Positions 21,146-59,495 of a DNA stretch of 64,000 nt are shown here, one piece after another. The number at the start of each line of letters is the position of its first letter. Position 1 is the first letter of the stretch. The stretch lies in NCBI GenBank assembly GCA_022842065.1, contig JALHQH010000043.1:41781-105780 (forward strand), in the 5' to 3' direction. The notes under the pieces were generated by a model. That model searched no databases. It worked only from the letters and a program-made list of their open reading frames with translations, and was not told the origin of the DNA. Source of the stretch: Caldilineaceae bacterium. GTDB lineage: Bacteria > Chloroflexota > Anaerolineae > Caldilineales > Caldilineaceae. The position numbers and the translations under genes are program-made.

Positions 21146-21190
21146 GCGCAACCGCGTTGGCGACAGTTGCAAAGCATTGGGAGAATAGAG

Positions 21191-24715: not shown

Positions 24716-24784
24716 GCCACGGCCCGTTACATCCGTATACCTATCGTTTACACAAAGCATTCTATGATAAGTAGGGAGACTTGC

Positions 24785-35826: not shown

Positions 35827-35838
35827 GGGAACTCCTCT

Positions 35839-36771: not shown

Positions 36772-36814
36772 TACTTAACTCCATCCCTGTGCAACAGATT
36801 CAGCACACAAGCGC

Positions 36815-36872
36815 AAGCCGGTCGTTTTCGTAGGCGCACGGCCTGCCGTGCGCCTACGAAAACGACCGGCTT
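36815..36872. repeat. 58-bp perfect palindrome between binding protein and permease genes
   Basis: Two exact 28-bp arms (36815-36842, 36845-36872) around CT. The core CGTAGGCGCACGGC resembles the core at 32701 and 63862 (CGTAGCGGCACGGCA); the outer AAGCCGGTCGTTTT is site-specific. It lies 12 bases after the binding-protein stop and 43 bases before the permease start. Confidence 0.9.
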
Positions 36873-36883
36873 AAATCCGATCA

Positions 36884-38233
36884 TTACGGGCGCGGTAGAT
36901 CCAAAATGTCTTGAATTTGCTGCGTGACGCCATCGACAAAGGCTTGGGTCGGCTGTTCGGCACCGGTCCACAAGGGCTGCATCAACTGCGCCAAGGCGGT
37001 TTCCGCTTCGGCTTGACGCCAGTTGGCCGTGATCCGGCTGGCCATGGCATTGTCCATGATCTCTTTGAAGACCACGCGGAAGGGGAACGCAAGCAACTCT
37101 TCGCTGCCATAAACATCTGCACGACCACCAACCGTACCGCCAATCAAACCGAGTTGGACGCCGGAATCCTTGCTACAGAGATATTGCACCCATTTGAAGG
37201 CTGCGTCTGGGTTTTGGCTGGCCGTGGTGACTGTGTAGGCATCCACTTCGTAATCCGAACCGCCGACGCCGCCTGGTCCAACTGCATTGGGTGCAACCAT
37301 CCACTCGAAAGTATCGCCAATCGTGCCACCAGTAACCGACACCGAAGTGCCACCCTGATACATGCCCAGCGAATTAGCGATCCACATATCATTGCCGCCG
37401 CCAACCATCTGCTCTGGGGTGGGGGCAACTTTGTGGGTTTGGAAGAGATCATAAAGCCAGGTAACCGCCTGTACACCCAACTCACTGTTGAGTTGGAATT
37501 GGGTACCACCTTCGTTAAGCAGCTCGGTACCAAAGGCGCGCGACAGGGTAACGAGGGTCTTCCAGATGTTGCCAACCCCGGGCAGGAAGCCATAGAAAGG
37601 TGGGGTTGCATCGCCCTTGGTCAAGGCTTTGGCCGCTTCGACCTGCTGCTCTTGGGTCCAACCGGATGTCGGGAGATCCAAGCCCGCTGCTTCAAAGGCC
37701 GTCTGGTTGTAGTAGACCACGGCAAGACCAGGATGCGCCTTGAAGGGCAAGCCAAGCAGATTGCCTTCGACGGTAATGGCATTGAGACAGCCCTCATACC
37801 ACTGCGTCAGATCAATGCTGTTCGAGGCAACCAGATCATCGATCGGGGCGACGATACCCTGTGCCCACATAAAGTTGATTGTCGCGCCACCGAGCGCGCT
37901 CCAGGCGGCATCGCCCAAGGTGTTACCGGCCAACATCGTCGAGACCTTGGTGTTGTATTCTTCACCGGGGAAGGATTCTTTCACGATCTCGATGTCGGGA
38001 TTTTCTTCCATGAATTTGGGGATCTGCATATCATAGAGGGTATCCTCTTGCTGACCGATGCGCGCATGGAAACGAACGGTTACCTTCTCGCCGGCCGGCG
38101 CGGCAGCTTCACCACCACCCGTGGCGGCCGGCGCAGCACCAGGGGCCACACAGGCAGCCAGTGCGAGTCCAACTGCAGTCACTGACGAGGCGCGCAGAAA
38201 GGCGCGGCGTGACAATCCCTTTTGATGATCCAT
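36884..38233 (-). CDS. ABC sugar-binding lipoprotein with Tat signal (CUT1)
   Basis: 449 aa. AAAGGAG precedes the ATG at 38233. The N-terminus has twin arginines (SRRAFLRASS) and a lipobox (LALAAC), so it is exported by Tat and lipid-anchored outside the membrane. A low-complexity Ala/Gly linker follows, then a MalE/UgpB-like fold (MQIPKFMEENPDIEIVKESF, GVQAVTWLYDLF, DAFKWVQYL). It captures the sugar for the two permeases downstream. First gene of the operon 38233-30034. Confidence 0.92.
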   Translation of the reverse strand: MDHQKGLSRRAFLRASSVTAVGLALAACVAPGAAPAATGGGEAAAPAGEKVTVRFHARIGQQEDTLYDMQIPKFMEENPDIEIVKESFPGEEYNTKVSTMLAGNTLGDAAWSALGGATINFMWAQGIVAPIDDLVASNSIDLTQWYEGCLNAITVEGNLLGLPFKAHPGLAVVYYNQTAFEAAGLDLPTSGWTQEQQVEAAKALTKGDATPPFYGFLPGVGNIWKTLVTLSRAFGTELLNEGGTQFQLNSELGVQAVTWLYDLFQTHKVAPTPEQMVGGGNDMWIANSLGMYQGGTSVSVTGGTIGDTFEWMVAPNAVGPGGVGGSDYEVDAYTVTTASQNPDAAFKWVQYLCSKDSGVQLGLIGGTVGGRADVYGSEELLAFPFRVVFKEIMDNAMASRITANWRQAEAETALAQLMQPLWTGAEQPTQAFVDGVTQQIQDILDLPRP

Positions 38234-38755: not shown

Positions 38756-41700
38756 CTAGTAGCTAAGGATCATGGGCAGCCACATACCGGGAATAATACT
38801 CCGGCGATCGGCGTCGAGATAATCGGGGATGCCATCGCCGTTGCTATCGTCATTGGTGACATCACCGTCACCATTCCCATCTTCGATTCGGGTCAAGATA
38901 CTATCGCCGTCATCGTCGGGATCGAGATAGTTGGGAATGCTATCACGGTCCAGATCATCATTGCGTAGATCGCCATTGTTGTCGAGATCCTCGTTCTTGG
39001 ATAGCAACGTATCACCATCATCATCGGTATCGAGATAATTGGGCGTGCCGTCGCCATCGGTATCATCATTGGTTGGGTCGCCATTCTTATCGACATCCTC
39101 GTCTTTGGTCGGCATCGTATCAGCATCATCGTCAGGATCGAGATAGTTGGGTTTACTATCGCCATCGGTATTGTCGTTGGTCGGGTCACCATTACGATCA
39201 ACATCCTCGACTTTCGTGGGCACCGTATCATCATCGTCGTCGGCGTCTAGGTAGTTGGGTATGCCGTCACCGTCGCTATCATCATTAGCGGGGTTACCGT
39301 TGCGATCGAGATCTTCGGTCTTGGTTGGGATCGTATCGCCATCATCGTCGGGATCGAGATAATTTGGTTTATTATCGCCGTCGGTGTCGTCGTTGACTGG
39401 GGTGCCGTTATTGTCGCGATCCTCAGACTTGGTGGGGATAGAATCGCCATCGTCGTCGGGATCGAGATAGTTGGGTATGCTGTCGCCGTCGGTGTCGTCA
39501 TTGGCTGGGTTGCCGTTAGCATCAACATCTTCGTTCTTGGTAGGCACCGTGTCGCCGTCATCATCCGGGTCGAGATAGTTGGGTTTGCCATCGCCATCGC
39601 TATCATCAGTGGCAGGGTTGCCATCACTGTTGGGATCTTCGTTCTTGGTCAGGATGCTGTCATTGTCATCATCGGCATCGAAATAATCCGGTTTGCTGTC
39701 ACCGTCGCTATCAGGACAGGGCAACCCGGTCGGACATTCAACATTATCCAGTAAACCATCGCCGTCACTGTCACCAACCCCACTCTGGTGATCATTCGGA
39801 TCAAGATAGGCCGGAATGCCGTCGTTATCGGCATCGTCATCAAGCCAGTTGCCGTTGCCGTCGAGGTCTTCTTGTTTGGTGGGGATCCCGTCGCCATCAT
39901 CGTCGGCATCGTCATAGTTTGGTTTGCCGTCACCATCGGTATCAAGCGTTGCTGCCCCCTCTTTGCCGTCGGTGAGGCCATCCTGGTCGGTATCGAGCAG
40001 TGGGTTTGGAATGCCACCAAAGAGCGTATCCTGCGTATCCACATTGTCGGGGATGCCGTCGTCCTCGCCATCTGTCTTGTTGTCGACGGCACCATCCTGG
40101 TCAACATCCAAGTCGGCATTGCCGGCTTCAACAATATCCTTGACGCCATTGCCGTCGCTATCGTGATCACGGAAATTGGGCAGGAGATCGCCGTCGCTGT
40201 CGGGCAAAGCAGGTGCCGTGGCATCGCCAAAGTCGTTGTCAACGCCATCATCATTACCATCGGCGCTGTCAACAATACCGTCACCATCAACATCGGGGCC
40301 GTCGGCAACACCATTGCGGTCGGCGTCAGTGGCAGCGCTGCCCCCTTCCACGAGATCACTGATGGTGTCATTATCACTGTCCAGGTCACGATAATCCGGA
40401 GTGGTATCACTGTCGCTGTCAACCACGGTATAGTTGATGCGCCCACTTTCTGCGGCAGTCTCCAACCGGTCAGCGAGGCCATTGGCACCATAGGAACCAT
40501 CAACTAAACCATTGTGATCAGCGTCGGCCTGTTGATGACCTGCTTCATCAGCATCGTTAATACCGTCATTGTCACTATCGAGATCCAACCAATCTTTGAC
40601 GCCATCGCCATCTGTGTCACCCGATTGCGGTGCGTTTGCGAATTCGACCCCATCCGGCAGGCCATCGTTGTCACTGTCCAGATCTTGATCATTGGGAACG
40701 CCGTCGCCATCGGGATCGGTCGTGCCTTCGCTCTTATCGGTCATGCCATCGCCGTCGCCATCAGCCAGCCCATTGGGAATCCCGCCGAAAATTGTATCCT
40801 TGGTGTCGGCACTATTGGGAATGCCATCCTTGTCGGTATCGGCGGTATCATCGATCTTACCATCATTGTTACCATCAAGTGCATCATTGAACGCATCTTT
40901 AAGATCAGGTGTACCATCCCCATTGCTATCCAGATCGCGGAAGTCGGCGGTACCATCACGGTCACGATCAGGCAGGCCACTGATGGGGGCATCACCAAAA
41001 TCGTTGGCATCGCCATCATCGTTGCCATCGGCGCTGTCAACGATGCCATCGCCATCAACATCGGGGCCGTCGGCAACGCCATCATCGTCACTGTCCGTAG
41101 CGCCGCTACCACCTTCAATTAAGTCACCAATGCTGTCATTGTCGCTATCCAAGTCAAGATAGTCAGGCGTGCCGTCGGTGTCCGTATCCGCCAGCGTATA
41201 GTTGAGGAGACCACTATCGGCCGTCGTCTCAACCCGATCGGACAAGCCATTGGTGCCATAGGGCGTATCGACGAGGCCATCCCGCAGCAGGTCGGCATTT
41301 TGATGGCCGGCCTCTTGGGCATCATTGATGCCATCATTATCACTATCCAGGTCCAGATAGTCCATGATGCCATCGCCATCCGCATCGTGGCCAGCCGTCG
41401 GCGTATTGCGATACTCAAGCAGATCAGGAATCCCATCGTTATCACTATCATTGTCACGAAAGTTGGGCGCGCCATCGCCATCACTGTCAGCGGTACCCTC
41501 CTCATCGTTGGGAATCCCATCGTCATCATCGTCGCCATTGCCGACTGAACAAGGGGCGTTCCCTTGGCCGTAGTTGCCGACATACGCATTATCCATCCCC
41601 AAACCCAGCACATCAATCTGATTGCCTGGATTTGTGCTTGCCGAATTCGGCAATTGATTAAATGGATCACTGTTTTCCATTAAGGCGACTGGGCCAAGGC

Positions 41701-42133
41701 ATGGACCACTATTGCGGAAGGAGAAGACCAACTGTTCAACATTTCCTGCCCAATCGAAGGCGCTGTAGTCACCGGCGGGAAAAGAGGCTGAAAAAGAGAG
41801 GTAGTCGGCATTCGAGTCTTCCACCGGCGCATCAATGCGTGAGGTCAGCGCCCAGGCAGTACCAGCAACATGGCTCTGCAAGTTGCTCACCAAAAAACGA
41901 TTCAGACCGGTTGCATGAGGCGTCTTGATCGTTACCTGCGCCGTCAGCGTCAGATTCGGCGCGCCAGGAGTGCTCTTGGGACGCATATAAACTTCATAAA
42001 GCTCGCCATTGAGCACAATCTTGTATTCAAAGCCAGGAGCCTGCGCAAAGGCCGGCTTCAGCGCGCTGCTCAGTAACAAAAGTACAGTCAGGATGCCCAG
42101 TAGTGCCTGTAAAATAGATCGAGGATGGTTCAT
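38756..42133 (-). CDS. exported calcium-binding surface protein: shared beta-rich domain plus thrombospondin type 3 repeats
   Basis: About 1125 aa. The ATG at 42133 is chosen for a GAGG upstream and a clean signal peptide ([20 protein letters not shown]). Residues about 31-200 form the beta-rich domain shared with three neighbours (YEVYMRP...[14 protein letters not shown]...[14 protein letters not shown]...[12 protein letters not shown]). The rest is TSP3-like Asp-rich repeats (DSDGDGxPNxxDxDxDxDGIPD), which bind calcium and make a stiff rod. The end reads [13 protein letters not shown], a variant of the YLPL tail. Function inferred as cell-surface or matrix structure. Gene is minus-strand, monocistronic by look. 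Confidence 0.85.
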
Positions 42134-42426
42134 GGTTGCCTCACATTCATTGCTAACGAATTTTGATAGGATCAAGCAACGCTTAATCGGTCCTAACATG
42201 CGCCGTGACAACCTCGCAAGTTGACGAAGCGACTAGCCTCACGACTGAATTTTGGGATAATTTTCATCAGTTTGTGATTAATAAATGACAAAAAGGCATA
42301 AGTATAGTTTTGGAATTGGCTATGATTTTTGGCCCGTTTTATCACGCTATGCATAAGCAGGCTTTTATACAGTGCGCGATAGGAGATCTGAAGTTTCTAC
42401 CAGTGCGCAAAACGCTGGTGCAATTC

Positions 42427-42475
42427 TCAGTAGACCGCAATACCCGCTCAGACGCCGAGCGTTGCGATCTACTGA
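42427..42475. repeat. inverted repeat with TCAGTAGACCGCAA arms
   Basis: TCAGTAGACCGCAA (42427-42440) pairs with TTGCGATCTACTGA (42462-42475) with one mismatch, with an inner CGCTC/GAGCG stem. The arm start equals that of the element at 29915. The remaining gap 42134-42555 is AT-rich and holds the promoter of the 38756-42133 gene, not identified. Confidence 0.65.
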
Positions 42476-42555
42476 TTTTAGCCGCTAGAGACGACCAGAT
42501 TTGTGGGGGAGAAAGATTACCGATCTCTCCTGCAGCTGTTATCTCTAGTGGATAG

Positions 42556-43206
42556 CTAGTTGTTGTTGATCAGTGGTAGCCAGAAGAAATTCTCTAGCTC
42601 GCCAGCGCGATCAGCACAAGCCGCGGCGCTGCCGTAGTTCCCGGTATAGAGATTGCCGTCACCCAAGTTGAGGACATCGATCTGATTACCTGGATTTGTA
42701 TGGGCAGAATTATGTTGACCACTGGCAACACCCGCATTGAAGGGATCATCATTGTTCATCAAGGTTACATTCCCCTGACAGGTGCCAGTATTAGCAAAGC
42801 TGAAGACTTTAACCTCTTGATCAGCCTGCCAGGCAATCGCTTGATGATTGCCGTCAGGAAAAGCAATGGTAAATGAGAGATAGTCAGCGCTTGTATTTTC
42901 GGTGGGCGCATCGATCCGCGAGGAGAGACTCCACTCTGTGCCGGCAACATCGCTGCTCAGTTCGCCGATGACAAAGCGATCGGCAGCAGTGGCATGCGGC
43001 ACCTTCAATGTCACCTGTGAGGTTAGGGTCAAAGCGGCACCACTGGCATTCACATTGGGACGCATGTAGACTTCATAGCGGCCATTGGCGTAAGCCACGC
43101 GGAAGGCAATGCCATTGGCGGTTTCCGCAGCTAGTGCGCTATTGGGCACAGCTAACAACGTCAACAGGCCAATCAGCATCAAAAGCAAGGTGTAATACTG
43201 TTTCAC
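42556..43206 (-). CDS. small exported protein with the shared beta-rich domain only
   Basis: 216 aa; AAAGGAG before the ATG, signal peptide LLLMLIGLLTLLAVPNSALA. About residues 28-195 are the domain shared with the 38756, 43404 and 48718 proteins ([59 protein letters not shown]). It lacks TSP3 repeats and ends in ENFFWLPLINNN, a variant of the YLPL tail. It may be the stand-alone binding module of the system. Function unknown. Confidence 0.8.
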   Translation of the reverse strand: MKQYYTLLLMLIGLLTLLAVPNSALAAETANGIAFRVAYANGRYEVYMRPNVNASGAALTLTSQVTLKVPHATAADRFVIGELSSDVAGTEWSLSSRIDAPTENTSADYLSFTIAFPDGNHQAIAWQADQEVKVFSFANTGTCQGNVTLMNNDDPFNAGVASGQHNSAHTNPGNQIDVLNLGDGNLYTGNYGSAAACADRAGELENFFWLPLINNN

Positions 43207-43249
43207 TTCATAGCTCCTTTATCTTGGCGGTAGTACTTTGCTCTCAATA

Positions 43250-43287
43250 AGTAGCAGCGTTTTTCAACTGTTCAAAACGCTGCTACT
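43250..43287. repeat. 14-bp hairpin between surface-protein genes
   Basis: AGTAGCAGCGTTTT (43250-43263) and its complement (43274-43287) around 10 bases. Lying between the stop at 43404 and the start at 43206 on the minus strand, it may end the larger gene's transcript. Confidence 0.5.
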
Positions 43288-43403
43288 CATGACAACCGCA
43301 GTTTAACCAAACATACACGAAGCACGATCCTGTACGTGCGGTTCACACAGAGCACAGGACGCTGGGCGAACAAAGAGTAGCTCGCCCATATTTACTGCAG
43401 ATC

Positions 43404-46400
43404 CTACGGCACTTGCTTGGTCACAATGTAGTTGGCGGCATAAGTGCTGTTGCCGGGGTGGGTAAAGATCGTCGTCAAGATCGTGTTGAGGTCATTACTC
43501 GGACCAGCAGCAATCGTTCGGCCATCCATATTGACATCCGTCACAGCATAACCGTCCACGATATAGTTAGCACTCAGGTTGTCGTTATTTTCATGCGCAA
43601 GCACTTTGATCAGCACTGGATTTACATCATTGCTAGGCCCAGCGTTGATGATAGAACCGTCACCCGAGGCATTACCAGCCCACAGGCCATAGACGCCGGT
43701 CTCCATCTGCACTAAGGCATTGGTGCCATTCACGCTAGCGCCGGTGGCAAAGTTGACACTGGTCGTTGGCGAGAGGGTAATAGCAGCCGCCGTCATCACG
43801 CCCAAATGGTTGCGATGTTGGACCGCCACATAATACGAACCACTGGTAGAACCGAAGTTCAGTGGTGAAACCCCGTCGACGCTAACCACATCACCATCCG
43901 CTTGGAGTAAACCGGATTGACGTACCACAACCGTTGCCGGGGTAGTGCTGTTCCGCAACTCGACCAATACCCAGTCAACAATGGCATTACTGCCGCCAAG
44001 CGTAAAGACCGTGGCATTGGCGGTTGCCGCTGCCGTCGTATAGGGCGATGCCGTCGGCAACAGGTTCTTGGTGCGCAGGTTATCACGCATCAGATCAGTG
44101 CTTTTGTTGTAAGCGCCGGCCAGGAAAACCTTGATCGACAACATGTTGTCCACATCGTTGTAATCCGGCGTACCGTCACCATCAATGTCTGGACAGGGAA
44201 TACCACCTGGGCATTCAGCCACATCAGTCAGACCATCACCATCGCTGTCTCCACCGGTACCATCAGTCGTGCCAGTGTCAACGTCCAGATAATCGGGAAT
44301 GCCATCGCCGTCAGCATCGGTCGGGTTGAGCGGGCCGCCCACACCAACTTCACCACTGGTGTTCGTGCCGTCACCATCATCATTGTTATCCTGATAGTTC
44401 GGTGTGCCGTCACCATCGGTGTCAACGTTGTTCGGTTCCAGATAGTCGGGTACTGAATCGCCGTCCGTATCACCGCTGCCTTCGGTCACAGTCTGGATGC
44501 CGTCACCATCGTCATCGGTGTCAAGATAGTTGGGAGTGCCATCACCGTCACTATCCGGGCAAGGTAGACCATTCGGGCATTCCTGACTATCGAGAATCCC
44601 ATCGCCATCACTGTCTGGATCAAGGTAATCAGGGGTGCCGTCATTGTCGGTGTCATCATTGGTCGGATCACCGTCCCCGTTTGGATCTTCGTCCGTCGTT
44701 GGGATGCCGTCACCATCATCGTCCGAGTCGAGATAGTCAGGCGTGCCGTCGTTATCGGTATCATCGTTGGTCGGATCGCCGTCGTTGTTGGTATCTTCGT
44801 CCGTCGTTGGGATGCCATCGCCGTCATCGTCTGGATCGAGGTAGTCAGGCGTGCCATCGCCATCGGTATCATCGTTAGCAGGGTTGCCGTCATTGTTGAT
44901 GTCTTCATCTGTCGTCGGTACGCCATCGCCGTCATCATCGGCGTCGAGATAGTTGGGCGTACCATCGCCATCGGTGTCGGTGGGGTTAGTGGCCGGGTTG
45001 TTGTCCCCATCAGTGTTGGCATCTTCGGTCGCCGTTGGCACCCCATCGCCATCATCGTCCGCTTCCAGGTAATTGGGTGTACCGTCACCATCGGTGTCTG
45101 TCGGATTAGTCGCTGGGTTGTTGTCCCCATCGGTGTTGGCATCTTCGGTTGTCGTCGGAATGCCATCGCCGTCATCGTCTGTGTCGAGATAGTTGGGCGT
45201 GCCATCGCCGTCCGTGTTGGTAGGATTGGTCGCCGGGTTGTTGTCGCCATCGGTATTGGCATCTTCCGTCGCCGTCGGTACCCCGTCGCCATCATCATCG
45301 GCGTCGAGATAGTTGGGCGTGCCATCACCGTCGGTGTTGGTAGGATTGGTCGCCGGATTGCCGTCGCCATCGGTGTTGGCATCTTCCGTCGCCGTGGGAA
45401 TGCCGTCACCGTCATCATCAGCATCCAGAAAGTTGGGCGTACCATCGCCATCGCTGTCGGTGGGGTTGGTCGCCGGGTTGTTGTCGCCATCGGTGTTGGC
45501 ATCTTCGTTCGCATCTGGAATGCCGTCACCATCAGCATCAGCATCGAGATAATCAGCCGTACCGTCACCATCGGTGTCAGTCGGCGTGGTCGCCGGGTTG
45601 TTGTCGCCATCGGTGTTGGCATCTTCAGTTACCGTGGGAATGCCGTCGCCGTCATCATCCGTATCGAGATAGTTGGGCGTACCATCGCCGTCGGTGTTGG
45701 TGGGGTTGGTCGCCGGGTTGTTGTCGCCATCGGTATTGGCATCTTCCGTCGCCGTCGGCACGCCGTCACCGTCATCATCAGCATCGAGATAGTTGGGTGT
45801 GCCATCGCCATCGCTATTGGTGGGGTTGGTCGCCGGGTTATTGTCGCCATCGGTATTGGCATCTTCCGTCGCCGTGGGAATGCCGTCGCCGTCATCATCG
45901 GCGTCGAGATAGTTGGGCGTGCCATCGCCATCGCTGTCGGTGGGGTTGGTGGCCGGGTTGTTGTCGCCATCGGTGTTGGCATCTTCCGTCGCCGTTGGCA
46001 CCCCATCGCCGTCATCATCAGCATCCAGGAAGTCGGGCGTACCGTCGCCGTCGGTGTCATCGTTGGTTGGGTCGCCATCGCCATCCGGATCTTCGTTGGC
46101 ATCTGGAATACCGTCGCCGTCGCTTTCGGTGTCGAGGTAGTTGGGCGTACCATCGCCATCGGCATCGTCATTGGCCGGGTTGCCATCGCCATTCCCATCT
46201 TCAGCGGTGGTCAGGATGCCGTCGCCATCATCATCGGTGTCGAGATAGTTGGGCGTACCATCGCCGTCCGTGTTGGTGGGGCTGGTGGCTGGGTTGTTGT
46301 CGCCATCCAGGTTCAGATCTTCTGTCGCCGTGGGTACCCCGTCGCCATCATCATCGGCTTCGAGATAGTTGGCGATGCCATCCCCATCGGTGTCGAGTGG

Positions 46401-48191
46401 GTTGGTCGCCGGATTGCCGTCGCCATCGGTGTTCGGGTCTTCCGTCGCCGTGGGGATGCCGTCGCCGTCATCGTCGGTGTCGAGATAGTTGGGCGTGCCA
46501 TCGCCGTCGGTGTTGGTGGGATTGGTCGCCGGATTGCCATCGCCATCAGTGTTGGCATCTTCCGTCGCCGTCGGTACCCCGTCGCCGTCATCATCGGCAT
46601 CGAGATAGTTGGGTGTACCATCACCATCGCTGTTGGTAGGATTGGTCGCCGGGTTGTTGTCGCCATCGGTATTGGCATCTTCCGTCGCGGTGGGAATGCC
46701 GTCACCGTCATCATCGGCGTCGAGATAGTTGGGCGTGCCATCGCCATCGCTGTCGGTGGGATTGGTCGCCGGGTTGTTGTCGCCATCGGTGTTGGCATCT
46801 TCCGTCGCGGTGGGAATGCCATCGCCGTCATCATCGGCATCCAGGAAGTCGGGCGTACCGTCGCCATCGGTGTCATCGTTGGTTGGGTTGCCATCGCCAT
46901 CCGGATCTTCATTGGCATCCAGAATGCCGTCGCCGTCGCTGTCGGTGTCGAGGTAGTTGGGCGTACCATCGCCATCGGCATCGTCATTGGCCGGGTTGCC
47001 ATCGCCATTCCCATCTTCAGCGGTGGTCAGGATGCCGTCGCCATCATCATCGGTGTCGAGATAGTTGGGCGTACCATCGCCGTCTGTGTTGGTGGGGCTG
47101 GTGGCTGGGTTGTTGTCGCCATCAAGGTTCAGGTCTTCCGTCGCCGTCGGTACCCCGTCGCCGTCATCATCGGCTTCGAGATAGTTGGCGATGCCGTCCC
47201 CATCGGTGTCGAGTGGGTTGGTCGCCGGGTTGCCATCGCCATCGGTGTTCGGGTCTTCCGTCGCCGTGGGGATGCCGTCACCGTCATCGTCCGTGTCGAG
47301 ATAGTTGGGCGTACCATCACCGTCGGTGTTGGTGGGATTGGTCGCCGGGTTGCCATCGCCATCGGCATTGGCATCTTCCGTCGCCGTCGGCACGCCGTCA
47401 CCGTCATCATCAGCATCAAGATAGTTGGGTGTCCCATCGCCATCGCTGTCGAGCGGATTGGTGAAAGGATTGTTGTCCCCATCGGTGTTGGCATCTTCGT
47501 CCGCAGTGGGAATACCATCACCATCATCATCAGAATCCTGATAGTTCGGGATGCCGTCGCCATCGGTGTCATCGTTGGCGGGGTCACCATCCCCATCCAG
47601 ATCCTCTTGGGTGTCGGAGATCCCATCACCGTCGGTGTCCTGACAATCCGCAGAGCCAATCCCGTAGTTACCGGTATAGGCTTCCCCGGTGACCAACGAC
47701 AGCGTATTCCCGCTGTTGATGTTATAGGGCGGGTTGGGTGGAATGAACGGATCAGTCGCATTATCGATCAATTCGACTGCACCTAAACAAGAGCCGGTAT
47801 TCGTAAAGGTGAAGACCAGCAATTCGTTCCCCGCCGTCCAGTTGATTGCTTGGAAGTTATTGGTTGGGAACTTAAGCTCGTATGAGATGTAGTCAAACCC
47901 AGGCGCCATCGTTGGGGCATTGGTCCGGTTGGCAAATTGCCAATTGGTGCCGGCAATCGGACTCGTCGCGCCATTGATGGTAAAGTCACCAGTCGGAACC
48001 TTGAGCGTAAACTGACCAGTTAAGGTCAAGTTGGTGGTAACGCCGGTCGGCTGCATGTAGACTTTATAGACGCCGTTTTCATAGGCGACTTTGAATTGGA
48101 TCTCGTTCGCCTGTGCATAGGTGAGGCTTGGTACCAGGAGCAGTAAGAGCACTCCCAATAATAGCGCCACCTTGTGCCGCATGTATTTCAT
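43404..48191 (-). CDS. giant exported thrombospondin type 3 repeat protein with dockerin-like C-terminus
   Basis: 1595 aa; AAAGGAG seven bases before the ATG, signal peptide VALLLGVLLLLLVPSLTYA. Residues about 28-185 are the shared beta-rich domain (YKVYMQPTGV, LTGQFTLKVPTG). About 190-1345 are tandem [21 protein letters not shown] repeats, 36- or 40-residue units, rich in Asp and expected to bind many calcium ions. The last 240 residues form a domain (IKVFLAGAYN...MRDNLRTKN...VDWVLVELR...[13 protein letters not shown]) followed by two dockerin-like repeats (SGDGSIINAGPSNDVNPVL, TDVNMDGRTIAAGPSND). The same end occurs in the 48718 protein. Role inferred: cell-surface or matrix adhesin; partner unknown. 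Confidence 0.87.
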   Translation of the reverse strand: MKYMRHKVALLLGVLLLLLVPSLTYAQANEIQFKVAYENGVYKVYMQPTGVTTNLTLTGQFTLKVPTGDFTINGATSPIAGTNWQFANRTNAPTMAPGFDYISYELKFPTNNFQAINWTAGNELLVFTFTNTGSCLGAVELIDNATDPFIPPNPPYNINSGNTLSLVTGEAYTGNYGIGSADCQDTDGDGISDTQEDLDGDGDPANDDTDGDGIPNYQDSDDDGDGIPTADEDANTDGDNNPFTNPLDSDGDGTPNYLDADDDGDGVPTATEDANADGDGNPATNPTNTDGDGTPNYLDTDDDGDGIPTATEDPNTDGDGNPATNPLDTDGDGIANYLEADDDGDGVPTATEDLNLDGDNNPATSPTNTDGDGTPNYLDTDDDGDGILTTAEDGNGDGNPANDDADGDGTPNYLDTDSDGDGILDANEDPDGDGNPTNDDTDGDGTPDFLDADDDGDGIPTATEDANTDGDNNPATNPTDSDGDGTPNYLDADDDGDGIPTATEDANTDGDNNPATNPTNSDGDGTPNYLDADDDGDGVPTATEDANTDGDGNPATNPTNTDGDGTPNYLDTDDDGDGIPTATEDPNTDGDGNPATNPLDTDGDGIANYLEADDDGDGVPTATEDLNLDGDNNPATSPTNTDGDGTPNYLDTDDDGDGILTTAEDGNGDGNPANDDADGDGTPNYLDTESDGDGIPDANEDPDGDGDPTNDDTDGDGTPDFLDADDDGDGVPTATEDANTDGDNNPATNPTDSDGDGTPNYLDADDDGDGIPTATEDANTDGDNNPATNPTNSDGDGTPNYLDADDDGDGVPTATEDANTDGDNNPATNPTNTDGDGTPNYLDTDDDGDGIPTVTEDANTDGDNNPATTPTDTDGDGTADYLDADADGDGIPDANEDANTDGDNNPATNPTDSDGDGTPNFLDADDDGDGIPTATEDANTDGDGNPATNPTNTDGDGTPNYLDADDDGDGVPTATEDANTDGDNNPATNPTNTDGDGTPNYLDTDDDGDGIPTTTEDANTDGDNNPATNPTDTDGDGTPNYLEADDDGDGVPTATEDANTDGDNNPATNPTDTDGDGTPNYLDADDDGDGVPTTDEDINNDGNPANDDTDGDGTPDYLDPDDDGDGIPTTDEDTNNDGDPTNDDTDNDGTPDYLDSDDDGDGIPTTDEDPNGDGDPTNDDTDNDGTPDYLDPDSDGDGILDSQECPNGLPCPDSDGDGTPNYLDTDDDGDGIQTVTEGSGDTDGDSVPDYLEPNNVDTDGDGTPNYQDNNDDGDGTNTSGEVGVGGPLNPTDADGDGIPDYLDVDTGTTDGTGGDSDGDGLTDVAECPGGIPCPDIDGDGTPDYNDVDNMLSIKVFLAGAYNKSTDLMRDNLRTKNLLPTASPYTTAAATANATVFTLGGSNAIVDWVLVELRNSTTPATVVVRQSGLLQADGDVVSVDGVSPLNFGSTSGSYYVAVQHRNHLGVMTAAAITLSPTTSVNFATGASVNGTNALVQMETGVYGLWAGNASGDGSIINAGPSNDVNPVLIKVLAHENNDNLSANYIVDGYAVTDVNMDGRTIAAGPSNDLNTILTTIFTHPGNSTYAANYIVTKQVP
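45753..47384 (-). repeat. two 816-bp copies of a higher-order repeat in the TSP3 gene
   Basis: Matching points (GTTCGGGTCTTCCGTCGCC at 47247 and 46431; GGTGGGGCTG at 47091 and 46275) are exactly 816 bp apart. The unit is five 120-bp plus two 108-bp TSP3 modules (272 codons), and the two copies read almost identically. The boundaries given are approximate. Confidence 0.85.
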
Positions 48192-48551
48192 GAAATTCTC
48201 CTTTGAATGTTGCGGTGGTTATCGACCGCGTGTGCCTTGTTTTACAACTGACATAGACTCACTGAACAATGAATTCCGCATCTACCCCCTTTCCGGAACG
48301 GTGAGGTCTGTGAAGTTGCAGTGAAGTTTATGACATCTATCCCGATCGCTCGTAGCCCCATGCCCAGGGCAAAGCTGTCGCGGTGAAGCAGACGGCACCT
48401 GGCAAGGCATAACCGATAGGGGTTAAAAAGGAGAGTTCCTGATGGCATACGGCTTGGTACACAGCAAGGAAACTGACAGTGGTAAGGTATGGCAGTTTCT
48501 GTTATACTGTAGACCGGTAAGATTGTTCGCCCAACAATGCCTACCACCAGG

Positions 48552-48588
48552 GGTAGCCTGTTAGCGCAGGCTACCTCTCTCTTTTTTA
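48552..48588 (+). terminator. orphan plus-strand terminator in an intergenic region
   Basis: GGTAGCCTG pairs with CAGGCTACC around TTAGCG and is followed by TCTCTCTTTTTT, a good intrinsic terminator on the plus strand, although the genes on both sides are on the minus strand. A TATACT box lies at 48503-48508. Nothing else was recognised in the gap 48192-48717. Confidence 0.55.
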
Positions 48589-48717
48589 CAATGGTAAAAA
48601 GCTTACTACTTTAGGCATTATGCACGGCCTTCTGGCTTCGCGCCCCCAAGGGCTCTTGCGCAGCCGCTGGGCCGTGCGTAACGCCTATCCAGCTTTGGCT
48701 GCGGCGTCTTTGCCGCG

Positions 48718-51700
48718 CTATGGCAATTGCTCCTCCACAATAAAATTTGTGGCGTCAGCACTGTTATCCGGATGGAGGAAGACCGTGCTGAGAATGAGAT
48801 TGTCATCGTTATCTGGGCCGGCCGCCAGCGCCACCCCATCTAGATTGAGATCCGTGGCTCGATAGCCGGCGACAATATAGTTGGCCGCATAACTGCTGTT
48901 GCCGGCAGCCAGGAAAATCGTTTCCAACAGTTCGTTGCGATCATTGTTCGGCCCGGCAGCGATCACTTGACCGTTATTTTTGGCGTCGCCGGCCCAGAGC
49001 AAGGCCACCCCAGCGCCCGTCAACTGACGGCTATTGGTGCCGTAGACCAGGGTGCTCGGTAAGGTCAAGTCAATGAGCGGCGTGGTTGCGGAAACCGCCA
49101 CGGGGTTGGCTGTCATCACGCCCAGGTGGTTGCGATGTTTCACCGCCACGTGGTAGTTACCCACCGCAATGGTAAAGGTGAGCGCGCTGCTGCCATTCAC
49201 CCCGACGACATCGCCATCCCGTTGGAGCAGCGCCGCCTGCGTGGCAACGACGGTGGTGATCGAGGTGCTGCTCCGCAGTTCGATTAACACCCAGTCAACC
49301 ACAACACTGGCCGTCAGGATAGCGCGGCCGGCGATGGTCTCGCCGCCGCCATAGGGGCTGGTCAACGGAAAGTCGGGCAGGGTGCGCAGGGTGTCATTCA
49401 TCATCCCGGTGGTACTATTATAGGCACCGCCGAGGAAAAACTTGATCGGCACGGTCACATTGCTCACCGTGGCGTCACGATAATCGACATCGCCACCACT
49501 GCCGGCGTCGCTGTCACTGTCTGGATAGGCCGTCGCCGGCGTGGTGAGACCGGCGTTAACCGGACCATAGGCGCTGTCATTGCTATCCACCCCATCATCC
49601 AGCCCATCCAGATCCGCGTCGACCCCAGTCAGCGTCAAGCCTGCTTCCGCGCTATCGTCACCCTGGGCGTTGTCACTGTCGGTATCCAGATAATCCGGTG
49701 TGTCGGCCCCGTCGGTATTGACTGGGGTCAGCGGCGTACCGCCGTTATCAGCGTCATAAGCATTGTCAATCCCGTCGCCATCGGTGTCACTGCCGCTAGG
49801 GGCGACATAGCCCGCCGTACTTTGCGCTTCGATGTTGTCGGGAATACCGTCGCCATCGCTGTCGGTGTCGAGCGCATTCGGGATGCCGTCGCCATCGCTG
49901 TCCACCGTCAGCGCGCCTTCGACGCTGTCGAGTATACCGTCACCATCGTCGTCGGCGTCGTTGCCATTGACCACCCCATCGCCATCGCGGTCACAGTCCC
50001 CCTGGCCCAAGCCATAGTTGCCCAGGAAGTCGTTGGCCGGGTCACTGCCGAGGCCGAAGACATCGATCTGCTGACCAGGGTTGTTCGGCGGCGCATTGAA
50101 CCCATCACTGTTCTCCATCAACGTGACCGCCCCGGCACAGACACCGCCATTGGCAAAGGTAAAGAGTAAAATTTCTTGCCCACCCAGCCAGTTGATGGCG
50201 GCGTTGTTATTGGTCGGGAAATCCAGCCCAAACGAGATGTAGTCAGCGCTGCTATCCGCGCTCGGGGCATCGGTGCGTGAGCCGATTGCCCAGGCCGTGT
50301 CGGTAACTTGGGGCGTGAAGTTGGTCGGCGCAAAGCTCCCGATACCTGTCAGATGAGGTACTTTAATCGTCACCTGCGCCGTACCGGTGGTGCCGGGCGT
50401 GCCGGGGGTGGCAGTCGCCCGCATCCAGATTTCATAGAGACCGCTGGTACTGTTATAGACAAGCTTGTACTCGATGCCCTGCGCCCCCTCGGCCACGTTG
50501 GTAAGGGTGACCGCGAGATCTTGCACATCGGTGCCACCGTTGCCGTCACTAACGGTAACCTGCACGTCATAGACATTGTCGGCACCCACATCAGTCGGCG
50601 TCTCAAAGTCGGGGGCAGCCACAAAGGTGAGCACGCCGGTGCTGCTGTTGATGCTGAACTTGGCGCTGTCCGCACCGCCCGTGATGCTGTAGCTCAGCGT
50701 GTCGCCGTTGCCATCGGTGGCGGTGACCGTGGTGACCGCGGTTTGGTTCTCCGCCGCGTTGACACTCGCCGTCGCCCCGCCGCCGTTACTTGTGATCACG
50801 GGGGCAGCGTTAGCCGCATTCACCGTCGTGTTGACGGTATTGGAGCTGGCCAAACTCGTGTCACCGCCGCCGATGACCGTGGCCGTGTTGGCTTTGGCTC
50901 CCGTTGTTGTCGGGTTGACGGCGAGGGTAATCGTCGCCGTGCCGTTGATGGCGATGACACTGCTGCTCGTGCAGGTGACCACCTGTCCCACCGCTGCGCA
51001 AGTGAAGCCACCACCGCTACCGCTGACAAAGCTCAAGCCCGCGGGCAAGGTGTCGGTGACGGTGATGACGCCGCTGGTCGCTGCCGTGCCGGTGTTGGTG
51101 ACGACCAAGGTGTAGCTGAAGTTGGTGCCTTGGGTCGCTGTGGCTGGGCCGCTCTTGCCGATGAGCAAGTTCGGCGTGGGCAGGAGCGGATCGCGATAAT
51201 CCACATCACCACTCAGATTACTGTTCGGATAGGTCGTATTCGGGCTGTTGATGTTAGCATTGACTGGCCCAAAGGCGCTGTCGTTGGTATCAACCACATC
51301 ATCCAAGCCATCGCTGTCGCTGTCTGTCCCGGTCAGCGTAAGGCCAGTTTCGCTGGTGTCATTACCCTGGGCGTTGTCGCTGTCAGTATCGATGAAGTCG
51401 GCGCTGTCCGTACCGTCGGTGTTGACCGGAGTCAAACCGCCGGTACCATAGGCAGTGAGCCGGCCCAGGGCATCCACTGTTGTGCCGGGCACAGCATAGC
51501 CGGCCGTGGTTTGCGCTTCAATGTTGTCCGGCAGGCCATCAGCGTCGTTGTCCAGATCTTGGAAATCAGGTAGATAGATGGCGGTGTCGTCGTCAGTGTC
51601 GGTGGGACCGTCACCACCATCCGGGTCGCCATTGTAGCTGTCAACGCCGGAATCGGGGGTGGTTTCTAGTGCATCAGCAAAACCATTGGTACCTACCGCG

Positions 51701-54700
51701 ACATCAACCGTGCCGTCGCCATTGCTATCCACCGCAGCCGGGTTGCTGAGACCGATCTCATAGAGGTCGAGAATGCCATCATTGTCGGCGTCAAGGTCCA
51801 GGCGATCCACGAGCAGATCGCCGTCGGTGTCACCAATACCTTCATAGCCATCGGGAATACCGTCGTTGTCGTCATCCAAGTCAATCTGGTCGGGAATGGT
51901 GTCGCCGTCGCTATCAATGGCCGAGTAGCGGAAGTCCACGTCACCGGTTGGCACAGTATGGGTGAGGTCCGTAGCCGGCGTATTAACATTACCATTGGGG
52001 TCGGCATAGCTGGCAGCCACACCATCACCGATACCGTCGCCATTGCCATCAGCACCAGCGGTCAGGCCAGATTCGGCACTATCCAGGGCACTGTCATCAT
52101 CACTATCGGTGTCGCGATAATCCGGCGTGCCATCCTCATCGGTGTCGATGGGGTCGAGTTGCGGGTTGCTGACACAGCCCGGTGAGGAGAGTACCACATT
52201 GTCGAGTAGGTTGCCTTTGTTCTTATTCTTGGCCGTAATGGCTTGAAAGGCAAAGCGGGTAAGCGTCTGGCCGGCGGGCACGGTATAGCTGCCGCTGTAG
52301 AGCGCCCAAGCGGTATTGCCGGTGCTAAAGTTACCCTGGCTCACGGGGCTAATCGGGGGACCAATCAGCAGGGTCAGGGTATCCGTCTGTTTGCGCCCAC
52401 GGTGGGCAAAGCTCCAGTTAATGGTGGTCCCCGGCGTGGTCTTGACATCCTGGTAGACGACATCATAGCGGTCTGAGTTAACCTCCAGCCGTTGCCGCCC
52501 ACTGTAGGAGGCCGTGCCGTCGTAGTTAGAGACATGAATTTCCAAGCGGTTGCTGCCACTGCTGTACCAGCCACCTGCCAGTGGCTCGCGATAGAAGCCG
52601 TTGCCGCTCCTGCGGTAGGGTGCTTCAAAGCTGCCGTTGACAATATTCGCTAAGCAGCCAATGGAGGCATCGTAGACATCTTTTATACCATCGAGGTCGC
52701 TGTCGGTGGCGGTGGGGGCCACATAGTCGGTTGTGCTTTGGGCTTCCACGTTGTCGGGGATGCCGTCGTTGTCGGTGTCCAGATCGAGATAGTCGGCTGG
52801 GCCGTTGCCATCGGTGTTAAGGGGAGTCAGCCCCACGCTGTAGGCGGTGTCGAGGCCGCTGGCCGCCACGGTGCCGCTGGGGGCAATGTAGTCGGCCGTG
52901 CTTTGGGCTTCGATGTTGTCGAGGATGCCATCGTTGTCGCTATCGCTATCGCGGCTGTCGAATTTGCCGTCGCCATCAGTGTCGATCGCACCGTTGCCCT
53001 CGGTAGTATCGAGAATGCCGTCATTGTCATCGTCGATGTCGGTGGTGTCTGCAATGCCATCAGCATCGGTATCGACCCCGACCACACAGGCACTGCTGAC
53101 CGTCGTGCCGGCGGCGTAGATCGGTTCGATCGAGGTCGATTCTGAGCCATCAAAGCCGGTGCCGAAGACCGCAAGGCCATTGGTACCGTTGGTGACAATC
53201 GGCGTGGTCTGGAAGGTACCGTCACCGTTGCCGGCGTAGACATAGATCCCACTAGAAGTGCCGTCATTATCCTTGGCCATGACATAGTCGGGAATGCCGT
53301 CGCTGGTGACATCAATGACTTGGCTGGATTTGTTGGCATCAATCCCCTGTTTGGAAGTGATGGCACCGGTCAATACACCTGTGGTCGCCGTCTTGCTGGT
53401 GGCAAAGTAACCGTCGCCCAGGTTTTGCCAGACAAAGATGCCCGTGCTGCGCGCGGCAATGTAGTCGGGCAAACCGTCGTTGGTCACATCGACGAGGAAG
53501 GCGCCACTGTTGCTGTTAAACCCAGCAAAGCCATTGTTGATACTGGTGCCATCGGTGGTGCTGGTCAAGCGATAAACAGGGTTAAAGCTGCCATTGCCCA
53601 GGCCCAGCCAGACGATGATGTCGCCACCATTGTTGTCATAGCTCCCAAGCAAGTCAGGGAAGCCATCGGCATTGACATCTTTTAGGAAGAAATATTCACC
53701 GCCGCTGGCACCCGAAGTGTTTCTACCGCTGCCGTCGTCGTTAAGCAGGGTGGAAGTTGGGGTGGTCTGGAAGGTGCCATTGCCATTGCCCAGCCAAACG
53801 TGGATGCGTCGGTCATTGCCGGATTGAATATAGTCGGCCTTGCCATCGCCATTGACATCGGCCATCCAGCTCTGTTGGCTGCTGCTTAGACCGCTGAAAC
53901 CGTTGCTGGTAACGCCCGTAAAGCCGGTGGTGGCAATGGCGGTGGTGGCAAAGGTGCCGTCACCGTTGGTCAGATAGACGTAAATGGCGTTTGCGTTGTT
54001 TTGCGTGCTATGAACCACATCCACCAAACCGTCACCATTGACATCCACAAAGAAGGTTTCCGAATTGCCATCAAAACCAAAGGTTTCAGTACCACTACCA
54101 TCACGGTCAAAGCCACTGGTCGTAATCTTGCAGGTGGTAAAGGTGCCATCGCCATTGCTGGTCCACACCGAAGCACCTAAACCAGAAGTGCCATTGGCAT
54201 CATCACCACGCACCATGCCTAATAACCTAGTCTCGACTGGCAATTCGCCGGCAAAGGTAAAGTAATCACCGTCGTTAAAGTCGATGGTGGCCGAACAGAG
54301 GTTGCGGACACAACTCAGGGTGATCTGCTCATCCGTGCTGTCAAAGGTGGCATCGCTACTACGCACCAGTGTGCGCGAGATTAGCGAGCCGAGGGTCGCC
54401 CGCACAGTGACTGTGCCTACGGCGTTGGTCTCATCCACACGCCAGATGCGGCTTATGCGTTTGAGGCTGGTGCCGGTGAGTGGATTGGTTAAACCGGTGG
54501 ACGCACCGTTGTCACCCCAGACGAGGAAGCTCTTATCAGCGGCAAAGGTGTTGGTGTTGGCCGCATTGGTGGCGGCAATCGTGCCCAAGCCGATGACCGG
54601 TTGGAAGCCGCTGTTGACGCTGGTCGATTGTTTCTGGTTGAGCGCTTGGGTGTCGTCACGGCCAATGCCGGCGATGTTGTTGCTGTAGGCGCTGTTGGCC

Positions 54701-56478
54701 GTGGCATCCCAGATAGTGGCGGCAGCCGTGTCGACATAGTTACCGGCTTTGGTGATGCCATACTTTAGCGCCAGATAGCTTTCGACCTTGTTGTAGTCGG
54801 CCGCCGCCTGTTTACTGCTGTAGAGGATGACTTCGACAATGTTGCCTTGCCAGTAGTGGCCTGCGCCGTTCGCGCGCGAACCGATGGCGAAGTTGAGGAC
54901 GGTGACATTAGGCGTCACGTTGCTGCTGGTCGTTTCGGTGCCGCCATTGGACGCCTGGTAGTAGGGCTGGGCAGGGCCACCAGTGAAGCCGGCGCGGGTC
55001 AGGTTGGCAATGGCTGCCGTCCATTGATTGGTCTGGGTCGCAAAGGTGCTGCCGCCGGAAACCTTGGAGGTAGCTGTCCCGAGTGGTGCCCCCGAGTTAA
55101 AGCCGTTGTTACTGACCGTGGCGCCAAAGCTCAACACGTACTTGTTGGCGGAGGGCGTGGTGTTGCTCGCCACATAGTAGGCGGTATAGCCGCCATTGAT
55201 AAAGGCAACGCCCGCGAAGGGATTGTTCAAGTAGTCCCCCGCTCCGTCAAAGGTCAGCGACGGGTTGAAGTTGAGCAGGTTACTCGCCGTGTTATAGACC
55301 GGCTGGTTGGCGGTCGTCGCCTGGGTCACGTTCGCCTCATTGCCCGATAGATCAGCCCATTGGGTAACACCGGTGACCGTGGTCACCCCCGCATCGGCTC
55401 TGTACCAACGCAGGAGATTCGTACCAACACCACCGGGGCCGGTCACCGCTGGGAAAGAGCTAGGATCATAAGGATCGGTGCCAAAAGCGGCTTCCACCCC
55501 ATTGGAAGCCCCATCACCATCACAATTAGCCGCGCGCCAAGTGGCATTGCCGGCCACATAACCGGTATAACCAGGCGATTGGGTTGGGCTACACGGGTCG
55601 TTAGGGGCAATGTCGAAGCTGCCATCAATGCCATCGCCGTCAAGATCCAGTGCCATCGCCAAAGTACAATCAGTTATTTGCTCATAAGCGGAGGTCAAAA
55701 TACTGTAATAGGCGATCTCACAGCCATCGAAATCAGCCGGCACTAAATTGGTTATATTCAAATTACAGAGCTTTGTACCGGAAGCAAGCGATTGACCGGC
55801 AGACGCAACACCCTGTTGATGAATGGTAATATACTCGTTCGTATTCGGGTTTGAGAGGATAGCGTAAGAGACGTTACTACTAGTTTCCTCAAACAGCCCT
55901 TCGCCGCCCGTGTTGTAGTTGGCTTCAAACCAATTCGTCGGTAAGGCAGGCGAATTATTATCGGCTGTGCCGGCGCTATTCCATTCCGCGATCACGACTA
56001 CTTCTTTATTAGGTGCCAAAGTAGTCGATGCGGGGAAGGTGAAAACCGGTGCAGCCGTGCCGGGAACGTCCGTATAGAGTCGCCAACCGGAAATATCAAC
56101 CGTACTACTCCCTGAATTAAAAAAAGCAATAAAATCATCGCCGTCTTCGTCGTCGGTGGTAATGTCACCCAGACTTTGCGAATCGCCATCACCTAACCAT
56201 TTGCTTAGGGCAATACCCTGTAAAGCACAGGAAACTTGCGCCGCGGCGGTTCGTGGTTGGCCCCAAACCAGTTGTCCAGCGCCGGTGATAGCGCCGACGG
56301 CGTTAGCAGCCCAGTCGCTTAGGCCGGCCTGTTGGGCGATGGATTGCGCCATTTGCGGCGTGGGTTGGATGGCCGCCACCAACGCGCCCAAGGGCAACGT
56401 GATCTGGGCCAATATAACCAACGCAGTGATGAGCGACAAAGCACGCGCACGTGTTTGGCGGTTGAATAAACGGCTCAT
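48718..56478 (-). CDS. 2586-residue exported mosaic surface protein (lamin-tail-like, LamG-like, FG-GAP, TSP3, DUF11, cadherin-like, dockerin-like)
   Basis: AGGAG precedes the ATG; signal peptide [23 protein letters not shown]. Order by residue: lamin-tail-like domain (about 83-235); LamG/DUF8202-like domain (about 356-693, [16 protein letters not shown]); FG-GAP/VCBS repeats (about 772-1112, [11 protein letters not shown]); TSP3 (about 1129-1263); DUF642-like module (about 1276-1430, [12 protein letters not shown]); TSP3 (about 1436-1750); DUF11 (about 1766-1882, [20 protein letters not shown]); cadherin-like (about 1893-1996); shared beta-rich domain (about 2000-2163, [12 protein letters not shown]); TSP3; the C-terminal domain with two dockerin-like repeats (about 2340-2586). 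Presumed calcium-stiffened adhesin or matrix protein. It has no YLPL tail. Confidence 0.87.
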
Positions 56479-57455: not shown

Positions 57456-57752
57456 ATGATGACACTTTCTGAAATCTTGCAAGATATCCATGCGATGGAA
57501 GAAGACATGTTGATGTTTGAGCGTAAATATGGCATTTTGACCGATCTCTTTTATGAATCTTATATGCAAGGCGATGAACCGCCGGACGATGCTTGGGTCA
57601 TGGATTGGACCGGTTGGGCGGCCAGTTACGAAATCTGGTTACAACGCCGTCAGATGTATGCAGATGCAGTCAACAAACTGCGGGGAACGACATCACTAGC
57701 TGCCATGATTGAGAAAGCGGTCAATCGTGAACCCATTCTCGTCCCGGCATGA
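57456..57752 (+). CDS. small helical protein, possible antitoxin partner of TumE-like protein
   Basis: 98 aa. AAAGGA lies a few bases before the ATG, with a good promoter 54 bases upstream. The sequence is helical and acidic (LSEILQDIHAMEEDMLMFER), with WTGWAASYEIWLQRRQ in the middle. No family recognised. It overlaps the next gene by about 26 bases, the usual arrangement of a toxin-antitoxin pair with the antitoxin first. That role is inferred from the neighbour only. Confidence 0.65.
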   Translation: MMTLSEILQDIHAMEEDMLMFERKYGILTDLFYESYMQGDEPPDDAWVMDWTGWAASYEIWLQRRQMYADAVNKLRGTTSLAAMIEKAVNREPILVPA

Positions 57753-58155
57753 GTATGAAGCAAGCATCTATGCGTTGCCGACGCGCTTTCCATCGATCTT
57801 ATTCTCCACTTTGGTGGCAATTCGTCGCAGTGCCACCGTTATCACCGTCAAAGGTGAAGTTCATTTTGCCGCCGGGATTCGCCTAAGTATCATCGAATAT
57901 ATCACTTTTCACACCAGCCCAGGATTCATTTTGGGCTACAGTTATGAAACTTGGCATAGCGCAAGCAAACTCTATTGGTATGATTCGCAGCCCCATCCCC
58001 ATCCCCATATCCCTGAACTGGCCTTGAATCATCCACACCACAAACATGTGCCGCCGGACATCAAGCACAACCGTATTGTGGCTCCCGACCTTAGTTTTAC
58101 CCAGCCCAACCTGCCCTTTTTGATCCGCGAGATCGAACAGACGTTGTTGGTCTAG
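57727..58155 (+). CDS. TumE/DUF6516-like protein, putative toxin
   Basis: About 142 aa from a GTG at 57727; TTG at 57709 or 57775 are alternatives, and the overlap with the upstream stop supports translational coupling. VITVKGEVHFAAGIRLSIIE, the SYETWHSASKLYWYDSQPHP stretch and the closing HHKHVPPDIKHNRI resemble the TumE family of toxin-antitoxin proteins (DUF6516). Activity not known for this member. Confidence 0.65.
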   Translation: MNPFSSRHEYEASIYALPTRFPSILFSTLVAIRRSATVITVKGEVHFAAGIRLSIIEYITFHTSPGFILGYSYETWHSASKLYWYDSQPHPHPHIPELALNHPHHKHVPPDIKHNRIVAPDLSFTQPNLPFLIREIEQTLLV

Positions 58156-59344: not shown

Positions 59345-59495
59345 CAACCGCGGCTTCCAATAAGGCAATCAAGGCTTTTTCTTCAAAAGCGGCCGCTACG
59401 TTTGCACTTTGTTGGTAAAGGGGGTCAAGGTAGCAGCCTGTGCAGCAACCCGTGCCGCCAAGTTGCGTATAAGGCGTAGATCACCCAGGCGGGTG
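59345..59495 (-). pseudogene. frameshifted C-terminal segment homologous to the histidine kinase end
   Basis: In the frame next to the response regulator's stop, the minus strand reads ATRLGDLRLIRNLAARVAAQ then AATLTPFTNKVQT and a stop; after a one-base shift it continues AAAFEEKALIALLEAAV. This matches the end of the hybrid kinase (LGDLRRVHTLAAELAAQDAL, PFTDQVQTLALAFEEKALIA). The regulator appears to have lost this C-terminal part by two frameshifts. Confidence 0.65.

Follow-up and report, generated by a model that had tools for sequence, protein, structure and literature searches.

Four adjacent genes and their shared modules

The DNA analysed here (the window) is a stretch of 64,000 nucleotides from a Caldilineaceae bacterium of the Chloroflexota (GenBank assembly GCA_022842065.1, contig JALHQH010000043.1, positions 41,781 to 105,780). 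In the list of open reading frames (ORFs), four consecutive genes on its minus strand are transcribed in the order D, C, B, A, and BLASTP and a hidden Markov model (HMM) locate a domain of about 160 residues, here called domA, in all four products (Table 1). The original prediction that four neighbouring surface proteins share one domain is confirmed by the alignments of B, with E-values of 3e-53 to A, 6e-40 to D and 5e-34 to C; B has no TSP3-like repeats and its values are clean, while the A-C, A-D and C-D alignments extend into the repeats, which inflates their E-values. Chance similarity is rejected by these BLASTP comparisons. As proposed, domA stands alone in B, at the N-terminus in A and C and internally in D, but the TSP3 label given to the Asp-rich arrays of A and C was assigned by eye, the TSP3 model PF18884 scoring under the threshold for A and D and finding no match in C. 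NCBIfam matches of A and C to BamM and MtsC were discarded because they lie within the Asp-rich repeats and below the cut-offs (BamM on C, 298.6 versus 315). The likelier start of A is the ATG at 42133 rather than the TTG.

In addition, C and D have in common a 243-residue module, Cmod (48% identity over 245 positions), and the paired dockerin-like repeats that had been predicted at the ends of these two proteins form its end; the second repeat has the proposed form, and the first is degenerate. Proteins A and B carry a short LP motif at the C-terminus instead of Cmod. Both the module around the repeats and the LP motif are additions to the original prediction. Neither domA nor Cmod has a match in Pfam or NCBIfam, and PDB sequence searches with the two gave no related chain.

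Table 1. Genes, modules and C-terminal ends in the window (positions are those of the window)
Feature	Position	Strand	Description	Evidence
Protein D	48718..56478	-	2586 aa: LTD, FG-GAP, DUF11, cadherin, internal domA, C-terminal Cmod	ORF, Pfam, HMMs
domA of D	50005..50493	-	residues 1995-2156	HMM 1.4e-50
Cmod of D	48721..49446	-	residues 2345-2586, ending VEEQLP	BLASTP to C 2e-51; HMM
D, first dockerin-like loop-helix unit	48910..48990	-	degenerate	sequence; homologous to unit modelled in C
D, second dockerin-like loop-helix unit	48778..48855	-		sequence; homologous to unit modelled in C
Protein C	43404..48191	-	1595 aa: domA, long TSP3-like array, C-terminal Cmod	ORF, BLASTP, HMM
domA of C	47652..48116	-	residues 26-177	HMM 1.3e-43
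Asp-rich TSP3-like array of C	44157..47624	-	probable spacer	translation, by eye; Pfam none
Cmod of C	43407..44135	-	residues 1353-1595, ending TKQVP	model pLDDT 96.5, pTM 0.92
C, first dockerin-like loop-helix unit	43596..43676	-	helix at Cmod 171-179	model
C, second dockerin-like loop-helix unit	43461..43541	-	helix at Cmod 215-224	model
Protein B	42556..43206	-	216 aa: signal-like N-terminus, domA alone, LP tail	
domA of B	42619..43119	-		cohesin-like model
LP tail of B	42559..42591	-	NFFWLPLINNN	
Protein A	38756..42211	-	1151 aa from TTG: domA, TSP3-like array, LP tail	
domA of A	41564..42046	-	residues 56-216	HMM 6e-73
Asp-rich TSP3-like array of A	38798..41539	-		translation; PF18884 16.2 bits, cut-off 25
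LP tail of A	38759..38788	-		
ORFs with LP-type end	97-1254, 13828-15705, 21167-24715, 24764-27628, 27803-29827, 38756-42211, 42556-43206			

Predicted folds of the two modules

The structure prediction suggested earlier for the shared domain gave a cohesin-type beta-sandwich, and not a fold unrelated to cohesins or carbohydrate-binding modules: the first 29 rows of the model comparison are all cohesins. The predicted fold is like that of PF00963 members such as the CipA cohesins (1anu/1aoh) and that of Clostridium perfringens (2vo8), but sequence identity is only 4–14% in the listed rows. The model of Cmod has a beta-rich front half, a beta-sandwich, followed by two tandem loop-helix units whose helices each lie behind a D/N-x-N-x-D loop. 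Two tandem C-terminal loop-helix units behind a beta-sandwich are shared with dockerins (PF00404) and with the X-module-dockerin ends of scaffoldins; we presume this likeness to an X-module plus dockerin. The end of Cmod aligned with two cellulosomal dockerins weakly and in register (19% probability). Unlike dockerins, Cmod has loops of 16 positions, plus conserved HPxN and QLP beyond the second helix. Pfam searches on 39 Cmod and 37 domA segments gave scattered weak matches only, the commonest being PF07495 in 4 of the 39.

In Bacteroidota genomes such as G094, G138, G249 and G318, and in P0052, the first half of Cmod (roughly columns 2–174) stands by itself, lacking the loop-helix part; there are several copies per genome, in proteins of about 300–2900 amino acids, and this half is an uncatalogued domain in its own right. 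Adjoining a full-length Cmod gene in G255, an ORF of 2410 amino acids (L032:9411-16640) has a weak partial domA match (1.3e-5), the Cmod front half and an end unit resembling an ordinary dockerin.

Distribution, gene order and C-terminal tails

The proteins matching B number 51, those of the window included, and the named ones belong to Caldilineaceae or Caldilinea. A search with Cmod gave 2008 protein clusters within one length range, and the best 120 of these, which were examined, bear names from Caldilineaceae, other Chloroflexota, Thiothrix, Thiofilum and Bacteroidota. Of these 120 proteins, which were picked by Cmod alone, 50 contain domA as found by its HMM, which was iterated with an inclusion threshold of 1e-6 and therefore gives inflated E-values for included sequences. 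Among all 193 proteins collected, 55 have both modules, 70 have Cmod only and 68 have domA only. Cmod lies within 20 residues of the C-terminus in 118 of the 125 proteins that carry it, commonly ending in QLP. It is found at or near the N-terminus in an ORF of Thiofilum (L051:1999-5676) and in P0065, P0067, P0073, P0086 and P0094; downstream of it lie M60 peptidase domains in L051 and a PF00150 enzyme in P0067. A few of the best 120 relatives have PF00128, PF00331, PF00150 or PF00704. Thiofilum flexile has 25 Cmod places versus 11 domA places, and its Cmod genes are spread over many contigs, away from the domA genes. The 11 of these 25 Cmod proteins that were scanned contain cadherin, Big_9, GEVED, TSP3, VWA, DUF4114 and IgGFc-binding domains and one M60 peptidase; no glycoside hydrolase was found among them.

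Twelve candidate stretches were checked for domA and six named genome contigs were confirmed, five from Gammaproteobacteria (Thiothrix and kin) and one from Emticicia, none being from Chloroflexota. In Thiothrix (L005) the order is a Cmod protein, a single-domA protein of 207 amino acids, two proteins running from domA to Cmod (1247 and 656 amino acids) and a two-domA protein of 711 amino acids with an IPTL-CTERM-like tail. L001, L002, L021 and L040 follow this order with variations; in L026 there is an extra single-domA gene and one gene is split by a stop; in L004 and L039 a Cmod protein comes immediately before the tailed two-domA protein. In Cytophagales (L054-L057, L061) the order is Cmod protein, single-domA protein of about 193–229 amino acids (the open frame in L056 is of 276) and domA protein of about 290–330. 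In the window, the two Cmod proteins D and C come first, then B with its single domA and finally A, which has domA and a tail. Locus tags of another Caldilineaceae genome hint at a like arrangement: KF832_08380 (Cmod, P0111), 08390 (single domA, P0006) and 08395 (domA and LP tail, P0183). Versions of the gene set with differing tails occur in three phyla, Chloroflexota, Gammaproteobacteria and Bacteroidota, and among their products are tailed proteins with two domA copies alongside Cmod partners, a layout that would recall the anchored scaffold and partners of a cellulosome.

The LP motif ends 52 of the 68 domA-only proteins versus an expectation of about 1% in shuffled tails; a further three have IPTL-CTERM-like tails. 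The motif ends none of the 118 proteins with C-terminal Cmod, an absence that is partly so by construction. Sorting models were matched above cut-off by domA proteins of L021 (907 amino acids; PF18203, 26.0 bits, cut-off 20.8; TIGR04174, 23.6, cut-off 20.5), L029 (290; PF18962, 61.8, cut-off 27), L030 (2214; PF13585, 95.3, cut-off 27), L006 (519; TIGR04131, 46.4, cut-off 35), L059 (310; TIGR04183, 37.6, cut-off 23) and L060 (556; TIGR04131, 54.3, cut-off 35). Matches stayed below the cut-off of 23 in L006 (310 amino acids, 19.8) and L060 (276, 22.7), were below cut-off or missing in L023, L024, L054 (two proteins), L055, L056, L057 and L058, and in L061 consisted of a single one, below cut-off, to the model of an unrelated enzyme. 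For A and B there was no hit among the sorting models. In the window, an LP-type motif (e.g. IYLPLITR, FLPMIYR) ends 7 of the 28 ORFs examined and could serve this Chloroflexota group as a C-terminal sorting signal.

Short hydrophobic-Pro ends that resemble the LP tail and follow a Cys (CVPVVVSRLR, CVPIVITKRTR, CVPFTIKKIKK) sit on L058:1784-2656, L060:9260-12877 and L062:1498-2769 in Bacteroidota domA clusters, with relatives P0189, P0190 and P0192. Stand-alone domA proteins of 250–269 amino acids outside a cluster (L023:1702-2508, L024:2316-3065) have a helical-looking C-terminal tail and no known sorting signal.

Presence and absence of the two modules are coupled across the three genome sets covered, which are the order of Thiothrix, that of Emticicia and a phylum sample. 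In 60 genomes of the Thiothrix order domA occurs in 25, Cmod in 26 and both in 25, the odd one being G446; without the five genomes that led there, the numbers are 20, 21 and 20 of 55 (Fisher p 4e-14; the p-values given here ignore genome relatedness). Places of domA and Cmod are at most 10 kb apart in at least 21 of the 25 genomes, among the rows listed, while G405 has them on separate contigs. In 241 genomes of the order of Emticicia, domA occurs in 14, full-length Cmod (a match from column 12 or before to column 238 or beyond) in 13 and both in 12, within 10 kb in 12 of 12 (Fisher p 2e-17; 3e-16 without G006). Matches ending at columns 215–235 (e.g. G020, G039, G097, G099) were excluded, and the one of G040 has an internal stop. 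Among the 395 genomes of the phylum sample, 52 have any Cmod match, six full-length Cmod and three domA, all three within the six. Hits to G006, G341 and G232 in this sample are by construction, since the profile A3 includes rows from them; the profile A1, which has no rows of this kind, recovered G006 and G341. Because genomes of the order of Emticicia with partial Cmod only rarely have domA (2 of 23), it is the loop-helix part, not the beta-sandwich, that travels with domA.

A putative docking system and its alternatives

Considering these results, we think it likely that the products of the four genes belong to an extracellular system of plugs and sockets that works like cohesin and dockerin. 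In this arrangement domA, with its cohesin-like predicted fold, would be the socket and Cmod, a beta-sandwich with two EF-hand-like loop-helix units, the plug, which would dock through its loop-helix face on tailed domA proteins, presumably in a calcium-dependent manner. The receptors on the cell would be domA proteins that have a surface tail (A, probably B, and elsewhere those with IPTL-CTERM or type IX secretion system (T9SS) tails), the LP motif being the putative anchor in the window. Proteins with both modules, such as C and D, would act as adaptors that dock and offer further sockets, lengthening the assembly with the Asp-rich rods as spacers, and Cmod-only proteins, mostly adhesin-like in the sample scanned, would be the cargo. 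That cargo sits on an anchored receptor is suggested by Thiofilum, because plugs are many (25), sockets few (11) and the plugs spread over contigs. The purpose may be an adhesive coat, a sheath or a fibre.

Several observations weigh against this reading. PF00963 matches none of the 37 domA segments, the domA profile shows no similarity to three CipA cohesins in hhalign (0.1%), and the polar columns of the 8-3-6-5 sheet, compared for a conserved binding face, give 0.50 versus 0.44 (permutation p 0.19); in four domA-holding genomes PF00963 has no match, while the positive control Methanosarcina acetivorans matched. PF00404 matches none of the 39 Cmod segments and has across four genomes a single match, below cut-off and off any Cmod contig. 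The closing Asp is conserved at position 16 in both units versus 12 in dockerin, with a four-residue gap against dockerins in loop 1, and the canonical 12-residue calcium loop was not found. Of the dockerin-like ends predicted originally, the two modelled units and their weak in-register alignment hold, but neither the family match nor the canonical loop does; likewise, the proposed cohesin-dockerin likeness is partly supported, by predicted fold and co-occurrence, and membership of either module in PF00963 or PF00404 is not supported by the searches made. Furthermore, Cmod is not C-terminal in 7 of the 125 proteins, four of which have an LP tail, and among 20 Cmod ORFs of Thiofilum (two being the same gene) it is N-terminal or internal in three. 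Several Cytophagales domA proteins (L054-L058, L061) have no known sorting model, and in G409 a distance of at least about 30 kb separates the six Cmod places from the domA genes. Cmod occurs without detected domA in G446, G255, G040 and G164, domA without full-length Cmod in G469 and G657, and the relatedness of the genomes bears on the Fisher p-values. The internal copies, the LP-tailed Cmod proteins and the single-partner genomes fit the docking model loosely, as possible internal dockerins and extra anchoring.

Cmod itself could be recognised at the C-terminus by a machine for secretion or attachment and so act as a sorting or export signal, like the T9SS C-terminal domains, with domA as an ordinary neighbouring surface beta-sandwich. 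We regard this as unlikely: its prevailing C-terminal position and QLP end would suit a signal, and in Bacteroidota it sits where T9SS cargo would have the sorting domain, the export route being otherwise unexplained, but Cmod is also N-terminal or internal, occurs in lineages with unlike export systems, and with 243 residues and two metal-loop-like units is large for a signal, which moreover would not need to be tied to domA. Sorting tails of the T9SS, IPTL-CTERM and similar kinds are found on domA proteins, whereas Cmod matches no such model in Pfam (segments scanned) or NCBIfam (C and D). It is rather improbable that the proteins with N-terminal domA and C-terminal Cmod form fibres or a sheath by head-to-tail polymerisation, with the TSP3-like rods as spacers and cargo docking beside the point. 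Thiothrix and Thiofilum are filamentous, and the two modules often stand at opposite ends of the 50 proteins that have both among the 120; however, a homopolymer needs neither the 70 of 125 Cmod proteins that are without domA nor the many tailed domA proteins without Cmod. As polymerisation still assumes that domA binds Cmod, it may be a sub-case of the docking system. Quite improbable, finally, is that the two modules are adhesive or carbohydrate-binding units, independent of each other and co-spreading in surface-protein gene clusters without mutual binding, since in Thiofilum both are kept with Cmod genes on many contigs away from domA, the coupling is to full-length Cmod and not its front half, and the best folds are cohesins and not carbohydrate-binding modules.

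Cohesin-dockerin sets outside clostridial cellulosomes are described in archaea of the anaerobic methanotrophic (ANME) groups (PMC9012536) and in Ca. Stygibacter of the Cloacimonadota, with a scaffoldin-like protein that has a C-terminal surface-attachment domain (PMC8542988). The domains of those sets were found through standard domain libraries, whereas neither Pfam nor NCBIfam picks up domA or Cmod, and the gene set described here spans three other phyla with differing tails. New here are the partners escaping Pfam, NCBIfam and PDB sequence searches, the different loop length, and the one gene set in three phyla with different tails; a literature search, which left most subscription journals outside its coverage and does not show absence from print, gave no paper pairing such modules with these hosts. 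A plain plant-degrading cellulosome was rejected, because cellulosomal partners are mainly plant cell-wall enzymes, while the scanned Cmod partners of Thiofilum are adhesin-like. We put at about even the chance that a cohesin- and dockerin-like pair, diverged or independently arisen past the domain libraries used, is a general surface-assembly toolkit of Chloroflexota, filamentous Gammaproteobacteria and Bacteroidota, in which each lineage sets its own tail (LP motif, IPTL-CTERM, T9SS) on the same receptor domain and a cellulosome hierarchy of anchored receptor, adaptor and cargo builds adhesive coats, sheaths or fibres. If the docking model holds, the C-terminal module that matches those 2008 clusters would gain a partner and a function, cohesin-dockerin logic would extend to three phyla and to adhesin-like rather than cellulase proteins, and protein engineering would have another orthogonal binding pair to draw on. 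Attention is also drawn to the LP motif as a possible sorting signal of proteins secreted by this Chloroflexota group.

Around the four genes, a solute-binding protein (SBP_bac_1) and, by eye, two permease-like ORFs lie directly downstream of A (34909-38233). A 148-amino-acid ORF (57709-58155) matches the toxin-antitoxin-type protein TumE (PF20126), and upstream of D, on the same strand, there are genes for a histidine kinase with a receiver domain and a response regulator (59481-63390).

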